56,773 bases of DNA from Bryobacteraceae bacterium (GCA_028275505.1 JAPWUP010000005.1:1-56773), one strand, 5' to 3'. Shown: positions 462-7,145, numbered from the stretch's first letter. Program-made: numbers and translations. Notes: generated from the sequence alone by a model not told the origin.

Positions 462-650
462 CCGGGCCAGCCGGCTTGGAACCCGCAAGGTCCCCGGCAG
501 GTAACTGGCTCAGGAATCAACATGATAGGCCAGCGACCCCGGCCGTGCCCGGCTGCCGGGCGCCCGGAGCCGTTTGGCCGCTCGATTGCGGAATGTGAAA
601 CTAGCTGGGTAGCTCCTCGCTACCACTCGGTAAAGTCAGGAGAAGCAGTC

Positions 651-3600
651 ATGACCAAGAGAGCGAATCGGATTGCAAACTTGTTCCTGGCAGCGGTCCT
701 GTGCTCTGCAGGTTTGTCGGCGCAAACCATCTACGGATCGCTGGCGGGCACGGTCTTTGATCCAACGGGCGCCGTGATCCCCAAGGCGAAGGTCGTGGTC
801 CGGAGCCTGGATACGGGCTGGCAGCGGGAACTGACCACGGACGAGGCGGGTTTCTGGCGAGTGCCCGCACTGCTCCAGGGACGCTATGCCGTCGAGGCTT
901 CTGCGCCCGGGTTCGAGACGCTGGTCCGCTCGCCGATTCTGGTTGAACCCACGGTTGAGCGCCGGGTGGACCTGACGCTGAATCCGGGCCAGACCACGGA
1001 AGTGGTAACCGTACAGGCGGAAGCTCCTTTGATCGAGTCCACCAAAGCGCAGCTCAGCCGCGGCGTGGATTCAAGCGCGATCCTGGCGTTGCCGGGTTTG
1101 AACACGCTGAATGGTCTGGCGCTGCTGGCTCCCGGCACCTTGCCCAATGCGCAGGGCCGTCCGGGGTCGGGCTTCGTCGTCAACGGAGCCCGTTCGCGGT
1201 CCAACAACTTCATGATTGACGGGGCCAACAACAACGATCAGTCGCTTTCGACGCCGCGGCAAACCGTGGCTCCCGAAGTTCTGGCCGAGTTCCGCATCAT
1301 CACCAACAACTTCTCGGCGGAATTCGGGCGCAACTCGGGCTCGGTGGTCCAGCAGATCACGCGGTCGGGCACCAATGAGTATCACGGCATCCTGCGGTGG
1401 AGCTGGCTGGGCAACGGGCTGGATGCGCTGACCACGGGCCAGCAGCGGACGTTCAACGCGCAGAAAGCCGCCGGGCGCTCGGATTACGACGCATTGCGCC
1501 GTTCGCGCGGAGTGCTGGTGCGCAATCAGGGCGTAGCCAGCGGCGGAGGGCCGATCAAGAAGAACCACACCTTCTTCTTCACCAGCTACGATTTCGACCT
1601 GCGGCGCAGCAGCGCCTCTCCTGTGGTCACCACCATCTCACCGGAGGGCTATGCCGCGCTGGAAGCCAATCGGGCGGCGTTCGCACCCGGGGCAGTAGAG
1701 TTCCTGAAGAAGTGGTACCCGGTGGCCAACGATCCGACGCCACGCGGCAGCCTGAGTGTGCGGCTGCCGGACGGGCGCACGATCACGGTTCCGCTCCAGC
1801 AGTACAACCGGGCCTCGGCTGAGGGCACGCTGCCTTACGCGCGCAATTTCCACCGCGGCTTCATGAAGGTGGATTCCAAGCTGACCGACAACGACAGCCT
1901 CAGCGTGCGGTACGCCATTGACGACGACTTCGATCCGGGCGCGCCGAACGCGCTCAAGTTCAACCAGATCGGCAGCGCCGGGCGCAATCAGAACGGCGCG
2001 ATCCACCACGTGCGGGTGTTCCGTCCCACACTCATCGCGGAGAACCGCGCCGTCTACGGGCGTCGCTCGTTCCACTTCCCGGAGAACCTTCCGCCCCAGT
2101 TCAGCATCACGGGCAGCGGCTTGCCCGTACTGGGCAACGCGAACTTCCCGCAGTATCGGACGGACAATCTGTACGAATTCAGCAGCACATGGAGCTGGAT
2201 TCGCGGGCGCCACAGCTTCCGCTACGGGGCTCACGTGTTGCGCTACCAGTTGAATTCCTTCTTTGCACCGAACATTCGCGGGACGGTAACTTACCCGAGC
2301 TTCTCCGACTTCCTTTTCGACCGCAATGCTTCCTTCTCCCAATACGCAGGAACCGGTTTGACGCCGGCTCGCACCACCGAGTTTGCGGGCTATTTTGGCG
2401 ATGACTTCCGCGTGACCTCGAGCGTGACGCTAAACCTCGGAATTCGCTACGAGTACACCGGAACGCCGTTCGGCTACTTCTCCAACGCCAGGCCTGACAT
2501 CAACAACTGGGCGCCACGGTTCGGTTTCGCGTGGTCGCCCCGCGGCGGCGGCTGGCTGACGGGCAATGGCAAACTGGCCGTGCGCGGCGGCTATGCCATC
2601 TCCTATGACCAGATCTTCCAAAACATCCTGCTCAACAACTCGCGTAACTATCCGCGCGGAGTTACGGTGACCCTGGACGGCATCAGTGGCCGGCGGCTGT
2701 GGGACCCGGCCAATTTCCCGTCTCCTCCCACGCCCGAGGATTTCGTCCGGCTGGGTGGCAATCCCAACTTGCTTCCTGTCCGCTTGTACTCGCCGGACAA
2801 GCGGGTCGCACAGCCCTACGGTCAACAGTTTTCCTTTGGCATCGAGCGCCAGCTTTACCAGGATTTCGCGCTCAAGATCTTCTATGTTGGCTCGCGGGGC
2901 GTGAAGCTGGTACGCGAAGTCGAAGCCAATCTGGGCTTCACGGCCGCAGCCATCAACGCCAATCCGTCCGTTTACCAAAGCGTGCTGCCCACGCTCAAGC
3001 CGGTGCTTGGCGCGGGTGGCGTCATCACGGCCTATCGCCGTGATCCGGACCGCGGCTCGATCCTGGTGGGCGACGGCTACGCCCAATCCGTGTACCACTC
3101 CTTGCAGGTCAGTTTCGACAAGCGGTTCCGGCGTGGCCTGCAATTCCAGAACAGCTACACGTGGAGCTCGTTCATCAACGACTCGGACGATATCCTGGGA
3201 GGCCAGGCCAATCGGACCCTGCCGTCGAATCCCCTGAATCTGCGCCACGACCGTGGCCGCTCAGGCTATGACCAGCCGCACCGCTTCACCTCCGGCTACA
3301 TCTACGAGTTCCCCAATATCCGCGAGGGTCGCGGCGTGCTGGGCAGGATCGCGGGAGGCTGGTCGCTGTCGGGCGTGACCACGGTGGCTTCCGGAACACC
3401 CTACAGCATCTTCAACAGCTTCAACGCTCTTGGGATTCTGCCCGGCCAGATCTCAACGATCCATCTGTCCCAGCGCGCCAGCTACAACCCGGCAGGCCCT
3501 CCCAGGACCGGAACCAACCCGACCATACCGACGCCCCGGTTCATCGCCAATCCTGCCAACTCGGGGATCGTGGGCAACCTGGGCGCCAACACGGAGCGCG

Positions 3601-3836
3601 TGGGCAGGACCGTGAATTTCGACGCAGCCCTGTCGAAACGGATTACCACCTGGGCTGACCGCGGTCACGCGCTCGAGCTGCGGTGGGAGGTCTTCAACGC
3701 GCTGAACCATCGCAATTTCGTCTTGATTCCGGCCAACACGGTCAGCGCCAACACGGATCCGACCACGTTCATGAACTTGGGCTTCACCGACGTGGGCGGT
3801 CGCAGCATGCTATTCAACGTGCGCTACCACTTCTAG
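651..3836 (+). CDS. TonB-dependent receptor, Oar-like, with N-terminal carboxypeptidase-regulatory-like domain
   Basis: Signal peptide MTKRANRIANLFLAAVLCSAGLSAQ; GSLAGTVFDPTGAVIPKAKVVV domain; plug-like NGARSRSNNFMIDGANNND; C-terminal NVRYHF. Start moved from 522 to ATG 651, which has SD AGGAG. Confidence 0.9.
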   Translation: MTKRANRIANLFLAAVLCSAGLSAQTIYGSLAGTVFDPTGAVIPKAKVVVRSLDTGWQRELTTDEAGFWRVPALLQGRYAVEASAPGFETLVRSPILVEPTVERRVDLTLNPGQTTEVVTVQAEAPLIESTKAQLSRGVDSSAILALPGLNTLNGLALLAPGTLPNAQGRPGSGFVVNGARSRSNNFMIDGANNNDQSLSTPRQTVAPEVLAEFRIITNNFSAEFGRNSGSVVQQITRSGTNEYHGILRWSWLGNGLDALTTGQQRTFNAQKAAGRSDYDALRRSRGVLVRNQGVASGGGPIKKNHTFFFTSYDFDLRRSSASPVVTTISPEGYAALEANRAAFAPGAVEFLKKWYPVANDPTPRGSLSVRLPDGRTITVPLQQYNRASAEGTLPYARNFHRGFMKVDSKLTDNDSLSVRYAIDDDFDPGAPNALKFNQIGSAGRNQNGAIHHVRVFRPTLIAENRAVYGRRSFHFPENLPPQFSITGSGLPVLGNANFPQYRTDNLYEFSSTWSWIRGRHSFRYGAHVLRYQLNSFFAPNIRGTVTYPSFSDFLFDRNASFSQYAGTGLTPARTTEFAGYFGDDFRVTSSVTLNLGIRYEYTGTPFGYFSNARPDINNWAPRFGFAWSPRGGGWLTGNGKLAVRGGYAISYDQIFQNILLNNSRNYPRGVTVTLDGISGRRLWDPANFPSPPTPEDFVRLGGNPNLLPVRLYSPDKRVAQPYGQQFSFGIERQLYQDFALKIFYVGSRGVKLVREVEANLGFTAAAINANPSVYQSVLPTLKPVLGAGGVITAYRRDPDRGSILVGDGYAQSVYHSLQVSFDKRFRRGLQFQNSYTWSSFINDSDDILGGQANRTLPSNPLNLRHDRGRSGYDQPHRFTSGYIYEFPNIREGRGVLGRIAGGWSLSGVTTVASGTPYSIFNSFNALGILPGQISTIHLSQRASYNPAGPPRTGTNPTIPTPRFIANPANSGIVGNLGANTERVGRTVNFDAALSKRITTWADRGHALELRWEVFNALNHRNFVLIPANTVSANTDPTTFMNLGFTDVGGRSMLFNVRYHF

Positions 3837-3864: not shown

Positions 3865-4452
3865 TCAATCCCGAAGCGCCGCTTCGGGAGGAGGGCAGAC
3901 GCGTTGCCGGTAGAGGCGGCGGTCCGCCTGGCGGGCCATGGCCTCGCAATCGAGCGGCATACCGAGGAAGTTCGCAATCCGCCGGGCCTGCTGGAACGGG
4001 TCCGCCAGCACGTCGTGATAACGGACCGTGCACAGAGCGACCCCTGGTATCTGGCGTACCAGCGCCAGCACCTGCTGCTGATGAGCCGCCAGGGCTCGGA
4101 CCAGGGCCTCGCCTTCGAGCGGCGCAGCCCCGCCATGCCGGCGAATCATCGCTACCTGGGACGCAGCCACCTCCGCCAACGGGCGTTCCATGTACAGCAC
4201 GCGGTATTCATACCCTGGCGGCAACGCCCACAGTAGCGAGGAGACGATCTTGACCGCCTTGCCCTCCGCCATCCGGATGAGTTCAGGCTCGCGGGGCAGG
4301 CGTTTGGCAGGCTCCCACTCGAAATAGCCCCGCGGGTTGTCCTCGTCGGCCACGCGCAGCCCGTCGGTGAGCACGGGCAGGCCGCCGGCTTTCAGCATCT
4401 GCATGAGCAGCGACGTGCCCGAACGGGGAAGGCCCGAGACCACGACGATCAC
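3865..4452 (-). CDS. sulfotransferase family protein
   Basis: 5'-PSB loop MIVVVSGLPRSGTSLLMQML; later YRVLYMERPLAEVAAS; GTGA overlap with upstream gene. Confidence 0.85.
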   Translation of the reverse strand: MIVVVSGLPRSGTSLLMQMLKAGGLPVLTDGLRVADEDNPRGYFEWEPAKRLPREPELIRMAEGKAVKIVSSLLWALPPGYEYRVLYMERPLAEVAASQVAMIRRHGGAAPLEGEALVRALAAHQQQVLALVRQIPGVALCTVRYHDVLADPFQQARRIANFLGMPLDCEAMARQADRRLYRQRVCPPPEAALRD

Positions 4453-6449
4453 GTCCGAGTGCTCTCCTGTCGCTCTCGCAAGAGCTGATCATAGCGCAAG
4501 CGGTGCTGGACCGCTTTGCCCGGATCGCCTCCCGGACGCCCGTAGAGCGCAGCCAGCCAGCGATGCGCGCCGGCCAGACCCGGCTGCATGGAGAGGGCGA
4601 GTTCGAAAGCCTGGATGGCGCGCTCGTAACGCCCCAGACGCGCGAGGGCGATGCCCAACAGATAATGGCCCGCGGGCAGAAAGTGCTCCAGCCCCACGGC
4701 CTCCAAAGCCGCTTCCGCAGCTTCCTCGAAGCGCTTCTGACGCAAGCGCACGCGGCACAGACCCAGGTAGGCGGCGGGCAGATCCGCGTCCAGCTCCACA
4801 GCCTTCAGGAAGGCGCGCTCGGCATCCTCCAGCCGACCCAGTCTGAGATAGGCCGAGCCTAGACGGACGTAGAGAGCCGGCAGCCTGCTTTCGTCCTTTT
4901 CCAGGCGAATCAGCCGCTCCAGAGCTTCGTCCGCCCGCTCCTCAAGCAGGTCGGTCATCGCCAGCAGCCATTCAGCCCACGGCCTCCGCTCCTCGCTTTC
5001 GAGCAGGCTTCCGAGGAGCTGGCGGGCGCGTTCGCGCTCCCCCAAGGACAGAAGGCACTGGGCCAGCGGAACCACGTAACGCGGCTCGCCGGCGTGGTCC
5101 CGCACAAGTTCCTCCAGGATTGGCAAGGCCAGGCGCGGCCGCTGCGTATCGAGGTACACCTGGGCCAGATTGAATCGGGACTCGCGGACCGCCATCGCGA
5201 CGGCCTGGGAGCGTTCGGGCGACGGTGGTTCGATGTAGCCCAGCGCCACGAACTGCTGGATCAGGGCCTGTGCCGCTACGGGATCCACCCGCTGATCGGC
5301 GCCGTGCATGCCTGCCTCGCCGGGAACCTCCTCCCAGCTCGGGATCGTTTCCAGGCGGGGAGGTTTCTCGAAGACCTGCAACAGAACCTTCCCGTCCATG
5401 TCGCGCCCGACGGGCAAGCCGAACAAAGCGAGCACGGTCGGCGTAATGTCGAGGACGCTAGCGCCGTAGATCCGTTCGTCGCGGCGAATCCCGGGGCCAG
5501 CCAGACAGAAGATTCCCACCGGCCGGTGGGCGACGGCGGGTCCGGCGGGCTCGCGCGGGATGCGCCGTGGCAACAGCCGACCCGAATGGAAGCCGTGGTC
5601 GGAGACCAGCATGACGGTGGCCTCCGGACCGGCCAGTTCGAGCAGGCGTGCCAGCATCATATCGTGGAAGCGATAGGCCCCGGCCAGTACGTCGCGGTAA
5701 ATCTCGCGGTCGCGTTCGGGCACGCCTTCCATCGCCGGGGGATGATAGGCGGCAAAGGCATGAGAGAAATGGTCCAGCGCGTCGTAGTAGACCGCGGCGA
5801 AGTCCCAGTCCTCGTGCTCCAGGATCCACGTGATCGCGTTGTGCACCGAAACGCACTCGGCCAGGATGATGGCGAAGCCTGCCAGTCGCCTGTCACGGTC
5901 TTGGTCAATCTCGGCAGCACGAGGGATGAAAGGAAGAATCTCTTCTTCCCCGAATTCGCCCGGATGAACGCGAAGAGCGGCGAAGGTTTCGCTCAGTTGC
6001 TCCGGGTGGATCGAGCCCGAGGGCAAGGGCCAAGGCTGCCCATGGGGCGCCGTGGCGCGCTGGAACAGGGGCGAAACCGCGATCCCGCGGATCGGCTCAG
6101 CCGGATGCGTGGCCATCCACGCCACCACGTGGGTGCGCAGGCCTTGCTGCGTCAGGATGTTCCAGACGGCCTTGACCTTGCGGGACTGACTGGATGCAGG
6201 CCGAACGCCTCCGCTCACCGGATCCGGCTCCATGAAGCCGAGAATTCCGTGCTTGTCGGGAAGCTTGCCAGTGGCGATTGAGGTCCAGATGAGGGGCGAA
6301 AGCAGAGGCCGGATGCTGGCGAGATTGCCTATGACCCCGCGCTGGATGAGTCGTTCCAGCGCGGGCATCAAGCCCGCATCCAGCAGGGGATTGATGAACC
6401 GCCAGTCGGCGCCGTCCCAGCCGATCAGCAGGAGCCTGCGGGCGCTCAT
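4449..6449 (-). CDS. alkaline phosphatase superfamily / type I phosphodiesterase domain fused to C-terminal TPR repeats
   Basis: LIGWDGADWRFINPLLDAGLMP, SPLIWTSIATGK, YDALDHFSHAF and VMLVSDHGFHSG metal/nucleophile motifs, then several TPR units (AERAFLKAVELDADLPAAYLGL). Confidence 0.85.
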   Translation of the reverse strand: MSARRLLLIGWDGADWRFINPLLDAGLMPALERLIQRGVIGNLASIRPLLSPLIWTSIATGKLPDKHGILGFMEPDPVSGGVRPASSQSRKVKAVWNILTQQGLRTHVVAWMATHPAEPIRGIAVSPLFQRATAPHGQPWPLPSGSIHPEQLSETFAALRVHPGEFGEEEILPFIPRAAEIDQDRDRRLAGFAIILAECVSVHNAITWILEHEDWDFAAVYYDALDHFSHAFAAYHPPAMEGVPERDREIYRDVLAGAYRFHDMMLARLLELAGPEATVMLVSDHGFHSGRLLPRRIPREPAGPAVAHRPVGIFCLAGPGIRRDERIYGASVLDITPTVLALFGLPVGRDMDGKVLLQVFEKPPRLETIPSWEEVPGEAGMHGADQRVDPVAAQALIQQFVALGYIEPPSPERSQAVAMAVRESRFNLAQVYLDTQRPRLALPILEELVRDHAGEPRYVVPLAQCLLSLGERERARQLLGSLLESEERRPWAEWLLAMTDLLEERADEALERLIRLEKDESRLPALYVRLGSAYLRLGRLEDAERAFLKAVELDADLPAAYLGLCRVRLRQKRFEEAAEAALEAVGLEHFLPAGHYLLGIALARLGRYERAIQAFELALSMQPGLAGAHRWLAALYGRPGGDPGKAVQHRLRYDQLLRERQESTRT

Positions 6450-6458
6450 CCACCGCCC

Positions 6459-7145
6459 TCAGGCCGCGCGTGACTGCGCCTTGCGCTTTCGCCAGAGGGC
6501 AAGACCCGCAAAGCCAAGAGCGAGCAGGCTCAGAGTGCCGGGTTCGGGAACAACGCCGGTGTCGCCCGCCCGGATGCCTGCGCCGGGCGTGTCGTCGTAG
6601 GCCCAGTCCTTGACCGTTGCAGAGATGGTCAGGAGATCGGCGTTAACCGAAACATCCATGCGGACCCAGCCGTAGTGGGTGTTGGGCCCGATCAAGAACC
6701 GCAAGCCCAGATAGCCATCACGCACGTTAGCCCAAGGCCCCCATATGTACCGCCCCCCATAGTAGCGATAGTAGGAGACAGCCGCCATCAGTCCGCTGGC
6801 ACCGAACGGGGCGGCCGGACCGACCGAGTAGCCCGCCGGCAACGGGCTGACCTGAAACCCAGGCGCCACGACGCCATTGGCGCCCACCCGCAGTTGCCGC
6901 ATGTACCAACTGTACGTGACCCATCTGGCCGCTGTCGTGAAGGTGACGTCGGGGCTACCGTCGGAGTTCAGGTCCAACTGAAATCCGGTGTTGGTGTAGG
7001 TGTGATCAGGTGGGTTGACGTAGATCACGCCGGCTTCGGCGGGGGCGCCGGCCGCCAGCATGCCCGCTCCTGCCGCCAGCGCATAAGCAAAGAGCCTCTT
7101 CTCGTGCTTCCTCTCGGGGCTGGTATCGGATTTCGGGACTTGCAT
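6459..7145 (-). CDS. PEP-CTERM sorting domain protein
   Basis: C-terminus VVPEPGTLSLLALGFAGLALWRKRKAQ; N-terminal signal; start taken as MQVPKSD. Confidence 0.88.
   Translation of the reverse strand: MQVPKSDTSPERKHEKRLFAYALAAGAGMLAAGAPAEAGVIYVNPPDHTYTNTGFQLDLNSDGSPDVTFTTAARWVTYSWYMRQLRVGANGVVAPGFQVSPLPAGYSVGPAAPFGASGLMAAVSYYRYYGGRYIWGPWANVRDGYLGLRFLIGPNTHYGWVRMDVSVNADLLTISATVKDWAYDDTPGAGIRAGDTGVVPEPGTLSLLALGFAGLALWRKRKAQSRAA

Follow-up and report, generated by a model that had tools for sequence, protein, structure and literature searches.

Three genes lie close together on the minus strand of the window, the stretch of 56,773 nucleotides from a Bryobacteraceae bacterium (GCA_028275505.1, JAPWUP010000005.1) that was analysed as a whole. 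They encode an exported PEP-CTERM protein, an alkaline phosphatase-superfamily (AP) hydrolase with TPRs (AP-TPR) and a small sulfotransferase (ST), and ORF calling confirmed them at the positions given in Table 1. A 9-bp gap (6450-6458) separates the PEP-CTERM gene from the AP-TPR gene, and a 4-bp overlap (4449-4452), read as GTGA on the coding strand, joins the latter to the ST gene. The initial annotation had described the same layout, with coordinates that agree with the ORF calls, and the family names that it gave were all matched by profiles (PF07589; PF01663 and TPR models; PF13469). Upstream of the genes is a divergent rplA-like gene of a ribosomal-protein operon on the plus strand and downstream is a convergent TonB-dependent/OAR-like gene (522-3836, plus strand). 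Since the flanking genes are divergent and convergent, the three genes form a free-standing unit, which by its layout is a candidate operon. AP-TPR and ST, two polypeptides in the window, are probably translationally coupled. A sigma70-like site (7181-7153, minus strand) scores little above chance, and its end lies 8 bp upstream of the start codon (ATG 7145); it is weak evidence for a promoter, which at this place would give an almost leaderless mRNA.

Table 1. Genes and features of the three-gene unit (positions counted from the first letter of the window)
Feature	Position	Strand	Remarks
Compact PAPS-type sulfotransferase (ST)	3865..4452	-	195 aa, GTG 4452; in most relatives one polypeptide with AP-TPR
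3'-phosphate-binding motif R90...S98	4159..4185	-	R90 invariant, S98 nearly invariant
5'-phosphosulfate-binding loop GLPRSGTS	4411..4434	-	R10, G12, T13, S14 invariant in family
AP-superfamily hydrolase with C-terminal TPRs	4449..6449	-	666 aa, ATG 6449; no signal peptide predicted
TPR region	4530..5177	-	about residues 425-640
Phosphodiest/AP domain	5205..6449	-	family-invariant catalytic-type residues D12, S51, D226/H230, D284/H285, H308
Exported client-like protein (PEP-CTERM)	6459..7145	-	228 aa, ATG 7145; signal peptide, new all-beta core domain and PEP-CTERM tail
PEP-CTERM sorting tail	6480..6551	-	residues 199-222
Mature core domain	6558..7031	-	residues 39-196; predicted beta-sandwich; DLNxDGxxDF / YGWxR / YAYE motifs
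Signal peptide region	7032..7103	-	residues 15-38, EKRLFAYALAAGAGMLAAGAPAEA; family signal [KR][KR]LxxY[AS]xxA[GAS]A...AxA
Tyr21 codon, family tyrosine of the signal peptide	7083..7085	-	Tyr in all 112 aligned relatives, Phe in none; the count covers only core proteins whose signal could be aligned

The product of the middle gene matches PF01663 (Phosphodiest; E 5e-30) and several TPR models (E 1e-17). D12, S51, D226, H230, D284 and H285 of its AP domain are invariant in an alignment of 47 rows, and S51 aligns with the nucleophile of the phosphonoacetate hydrolase PhnA. By profile, nucleophile position and metal ligands the AP head is a member of PF01663, for which hydrolase or transferase activity is predicted. 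It belongs to the same superfamily as PhnA and other PF01663 proteins and conserves the alignable catalytic positions, but it has Ser at the nucleophile position, appears to be cytosolic and is followed by TPRs and then usually by ST. Only about 4-19 residues stand ahead of the AP core, so there is no room for a signal peptide on the AP-TPR enzyme. Judged from their sequences, both enzymes lack a signal peptide and are thus predicted to be cytosolic.

The ST protein matches PF13469 (Sulfotransfer_3) with an E value of 1e-13, above the cut-off, and R10, G12, T13, S14 and R90 are invariant in an alignment of 61 rows. Sulfotransferase folds top the PDB ranking for its predicted model (pLDDT 92.5); these matches include glycopeptide and small-molecule sulfotransferases (StaL, Teg12/14, CurM), SULTs and tyrosylprotein sulfotransferases, among which TPST1/2 match no better than the small-molecule enzymes. 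The predicted model thus confirms a sulfotransferase fold, but it does not tell a protein acceptor from a small-molecule acceptor. With a 5'-phosphosulfate-binding motif, a 3'-phosphate-binding motif and a predicted P-loop fold, the protein belongs to the PAPS sulfotransferases. It resembles the PF13469 sulfotransferases (StaL, Teg12/14, the CurM ST and, by fold, the TPSTs) in the P-loop PAPS-binding fold and in both cofactor motifs, but window-type ST, at ~190 aa, is shorter than the PDB matches listed. A PDB sequence search found no close relative of ST.

The exported protein, termed the client here, carries a true PEP-CTERM tail with a PEP motif, a hydrophobic stretch and a basic end (PF07589, E 4e-7, 30.2 bits against a cut-off of 20.7; TIGR02595, 24.8 bits against a cut-off of 16), and the genome of the window (G000) has three exosortase (PF09721) loci above the cut-off. 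Conservation in the client family is confined to a signal region at the N-terminus and a core of some 160 residues with the motifs of Table 1, and does not extend to the tail. Homologous cores carry PEP-CTERM (TIGR02595), IPTL-CTERM (TIGR04174) or T9SS type A (TIGR04183) tails depending on the lineage, each above its curated NCBIfam cut-off, and the family is thus one of exported domains with varied anchors. The PEP-CTERM tail was rejected as the conserved element for this reason. The initial annotation was therefore right to call the window protein an exosortase-sorted PEP-CTERM protein, but the tail is incidental. The same holds for comparison with the known sorting systems (PEP-CTERM/exosortase, IPTL-CTERM/XrtH and T9SS type A tails): the window has a PEP-CTERM tail and exosortase genes, whereas client tails are interchangeable between lineages and neither AP-TPR nor ST partners an exosortase. 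In Terriglobia, core proteins (L009, L013, L015, L034) end in PATLGxLAxGAxxLxxWRR, a tail outside the curated families that is possibly an undescribed sorting signal. The core domain matches no Pfam or NCBIfam family. Its AlphaFold model is all-beta and beta-sandwich-like (mean pLDDT 91.4), and homology to a solved fold was rejected, as no PDB match reached E <= 0.001 (best 0.057, TM < 0.25).

The AP-TPR protein was scanned against 84,980 species genomes and the best 80 loci, about 39-64% identical, were kept. These loci were chosen by similarity to the window AP, so fractions among them describe close relatives, and most are MAGs in which mis-binning is possible; one, L071, is from Botrimarina colliarenosi Pla108, a cultured host of the system. 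They come from Acidobacteriota, Bacteroidota, Verrucomicrobiota, Planctomycetota, Nitrospirota and Myxococcota/delta-proteobacteria, with one pseudomonadotal, one cyanobacterial and one actinobacterial MAG; the system thus spans eight phyla or more. The window is placed in Acidobacteriota by the AP tree and by neighbours. ST is part of the AP-TPR ORF (about 850-940 aa), C-terminal behind the TPRs, in 56 of the 80 loci; ST directly follows as a separate gene in four, a contig ends at the ST position or within 600 bp in five, and ST is not adjacent in the remaining 15. Five long proteins were examined with Pfam, and Phosphodiest followed by TPRs was found in all five and a C-terminal Sulfotransfer_3 domain in four; in the long protein of L061 the ST part is marked only by the ST profile built in this analysis. 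Acidobacteria carry AP-TPR and ST split. By comparison of sequences, the window thus has in two pieces an enzyme that most relatives make as a single chain.

In 68 of the 80 loci client homologues are found no more than 1.3 kb from the enzyme and on its strand, usually just upstream and sometimes in two to five tandem copies. Thus, the three families whose co-occurrence the initial annotation had proposed to check are neighbours in related genomes, and their recurrence across phyla makes the layout more than an accident of one genome. The 80-locus gene-order listing, which was not annotated exhaustively, showed no recurring glycosyltransferase, biosynthetic or transport genes beside the module, and a glycan operon was rejected since no recurring glycosyltransferase neighbour was noticed there.

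The association also holds where the genes are not adjacent. ST is encoded elsewhere, in exactly one high-scoring copy, in all ten acidobacterial genomes checked whose AP locus has no adjacent ST, some of these loci being cut by contig ends; in the phylum as sampled, 36 of 199 genomes have ST, and this comparison is free of circularity. The client core profile has hits in 36 of the 38 genomes that bear the enzyme (1-32 copies), a co-occurrence that is partly circular because the profile was built from these loci. Two observations on the core are not circular: cores are found elsewhere in nine of ten genomes whose AP locus has no neighbouring core gene, and G313, found only in a random sample of Planctomycetota, has the enzyme, ST and cores. 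A pooled Fisher test of the co-occurrence gave ~1e-47, a value that ignores relatedness and the circularity of the profile. In 199 genomes sampled from the phylum of the window, the core occurs only in the window's own genome, which is also the only one with this AP subfamily (673 bits in the window, at most 377 bits elsewhere). Six of 199 Planctomycetota have the core; two of these have the AP family at > 550 bits, three have none at the threshold used, and the sixth has AP genes that are divergent (344-371 bits), including one that directly follows a core gene. Close STs occur in other Acidobacteria that lack the AP-TPR family or the client core, so the presence of ST does not by itself mark the system.

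A general acidobacterial surface operon was rejected, the core being so rare in the phylum. The co-occurrence that the initial annotation proposed to look for in Acidobacteriota is thus no general trait of the phylum, while the core is met again in MAGs of Terriglobia and in Bacteroidota, Verrucomicrobiota, Planctomycetota, Nitrospirota and others. Taken together, a functional link between enzyme and client is very probable. That the genes merely travel together on mobile DNA would fit their patchy distribution and the interleaving of phyla in the AP tree, but fusion, split pairs kept in trans, invariant catalytic residues and clients in up to 32 copies far from the enzyme speak against it, and with unlinked co-occurrence largely refuting it this explanation is very improbable.

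Other arrangements of these families were seen. The acidobacterial genome G203, from which L013 comes, has 32 core-domain matches, many of them in tandem and far from the enzyme genes (for example L174 and L175). In five other Acidobacteriota (L162, L163, L164, L166 and L167 in G059, G184, G117, G107 and G191) the same small ST is encoded close to another kind of AP-superfamily protein. In the two loci read in detail, L162 and L163, that protein seems to be exported (a signal- or lipobox-like stretch and no TPR) and lies beside a membrane protein of ~290 aa; this arrangement seems to be a second association of AP and ST. AP-domain paralogues of about 450-1200 aa, as many as seven in one genome, occur in many Acidobacteriota (L088-L116), and the short stretches retrieved around them show neither ST nor a core gene adjacent.

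No other stretch of the client is as conserved as the signal peptide, and its tyrosine has no exception among the relatives counted in Table 1. Another 21 core rows are mostly truncated, and about six of them are intact relatives without the whole signal motif. In the same alignment, aromatic columns of the mature domain mix Tyr with Phe or Trp and no mature-domain Tyr is invariant. No further Tyr occurs in the 17 residues after the signal Tyr. A profile of the signal finds almost only core genes at E < 1e-3 in 15 whole genomes; the matches without a listed core match are a 109-aa frame (G219:C93:4347-4448) and one contig-edge fragment. A signal common to other exported proteins was therefore rejected, as the matches apart from that frame are core genes, fragments or chance-level. 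The conservation of the signal Tyr suggests that the enzyme recognises or chemically marks its clients before export.

Signal Tyr and ST show some covariation. Genomes that lack ST (G212, G214, G272, G347) have only Tyr-less clients, and two of them, G212 and G214, keep AP-TPR. The client of G338, which has ST and no AP-TPR at threshold, carries the Tyr, as does that of the ST-bearing G313. Five genomes (G338, G313, G272, G347, G316) were checked for ST only after the state of the Tyr had been seen, and four agreed with the predicted link while G316 has the Tyr and no ST that could be found. Conversely, Tyr-less clients lie beside ST in L061, L068, L025 and the second module of L020. The ST-less loci L072, L077 and L086 form one clade of the AP tree with the second AP of L020, so the independent events of Tyr and ST change are few. 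A Fisher test gave p = 0.0016 for the link, ignoring kinship and counting two N-terminally truncated genes as Tyr-less. The sequences are thus suggestive only: the signal Tyr tends to be absent where ST is absent, with exceptions.

We propose that cytosolic AP-TPR-ST acts, probably by sulfation, on the client precursor, which it would recognise by the signal, before Sec export and anchoring; as a whole this reading is held at somewhat less than even confidence. An AP hydrolase, a TPR scaffold and a PAPS-dependent ST would make up a two-headed cytosolic enzyme, one polypeptide in most lineages and two here. The two heads would be in the cytosol, where PAPS is made, so the client could be met only before export. 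The Arg/Lys-Leu-x-x-Tyr signal helix of the precursor probably docks in the TPR groove, and we infer physical contact between enzyme and client at this step. ST would transfer sulfate from PAPS to the precursor, and the AP head would either take the sulfate off again or dispose of PAP, the product. Once exported, the core would be anchored by the system of the host, be it exosortase, XrtH/IPTL or T9SS. That the client is sulfated at all is about an even call. The signal Tyr is the leading candidate acceptor and yet an improbable one; a tyrosine in a cleaved signal peptide is lost on maturation and would be an odd acceptor. The specific version in which the fused hydrolase-TPR-ST sulfates this Tyr, and so marks or gates precursors before export, is rather unlikely.

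The signal Tyr may be only a docking residue. It could be read by the TPR domain while ST modifies the client at a different residue, or a different molecule brought to it, an explanation that we consider unlikely overall, if the best of the alternatives. TPRs typically bind peptides, signal peptides are discarded after cleavage, and positions -7 and -3 of the signal are mostly L or F/W, so that L, L and Y lie on one helix face (L-7, L-3, Y0). Against this explanation, an obligatory Tyr acceptor in the mature domain would be expected to be invariant, and no Tyr there is; moreover, the signal Tyr is missing from most ST-less genomes, including two that retain AP-TPR (G212, G214).

Less likely again is a pathway in which AP-TPR-ST makes or trims a sulfated metabolite or glycan that the exported core protein then binds, or to which it becomes attached, at the surface. 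The fold of the ST model lies as near to StaL, Teg12/14 and CurM as to SULTs and TPSTs, AP-superfamily enzymes act on many esters, and the predicted beta-sandwich of the core could bind a ligand. However, the gene-order listing has no conserved neighbours of the kind that such a pathway would use, and the conservation of the signal peptide is left unexplained. The initial annotation had suggested decoration of an exported protein or its glycan. An exported protein does co-occur with the enzymes, but their predicted cytosolic location argues for its precursor and not for surface glycans as the target.

A switch for export was also considered, in which sulfation of the signal Tyr by ST blocks translocation and the AP head releases the block, gating secretion of the client. 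The two heads are predicted to be cytosolic and are usually fused, and the invariant Tyr sits where the n and h regions of the signal peptide meet, a place at which charge would hamper insertion. However, sulfate monoester hydrolysis by a Ser-type AP domain of the phosphodiesterase family is not established and the switch is a purely mechanistic construct, which makes it quite doubtful.

Returning to sulfation of the client precursor as the preferred reading, the nearest described case is RaxST of Xanthomonas, a PAPS sulfotransferase that sulfates tyrosine in vitro, is encoded beside export genes and has as its proposed target a leader-bearing peptide that is yet to be secreted (PMC4216712). 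The likeness lies in a sulfotransferase encoded with a leader-bearing exported substrate. The secreted substrate of RaxST is RaxX. RaxST lacks AP and TPR domains and belongs to type I secretion of a small peptide in a single pathogen genus, whereas the system of the window has an AP-TPR-ST enzyme, a family of clients with a 180-aa beta domain and varied anchors, and a spread over at least eight phyla. The type I secretion genes raxA and raxB are absent beside the window ST, whose neighbours are a TonB-dependent receptor and ribosomal/RNA polymerase genes. The initial annotation had known of no described system with this composition, and a search of the open-access literature likewise gave nothing relevant and no published description that combines these families. 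The AP-TPR-ST and client system is thus apparently undescribed. To our knowledge, very few instances of protein sulfation have been described in bacteria. If the proposed reading is true, it would add a system that is widespread and had no name before, with an enzyme that is easily recognised and a large client family that has no known fold match. It would also mean that signal peptides of Gram-negative-type bacteria can carry a dedicated recognition tag, and its signal-Tyr version is a one-residue hypothesis that is directly testable.
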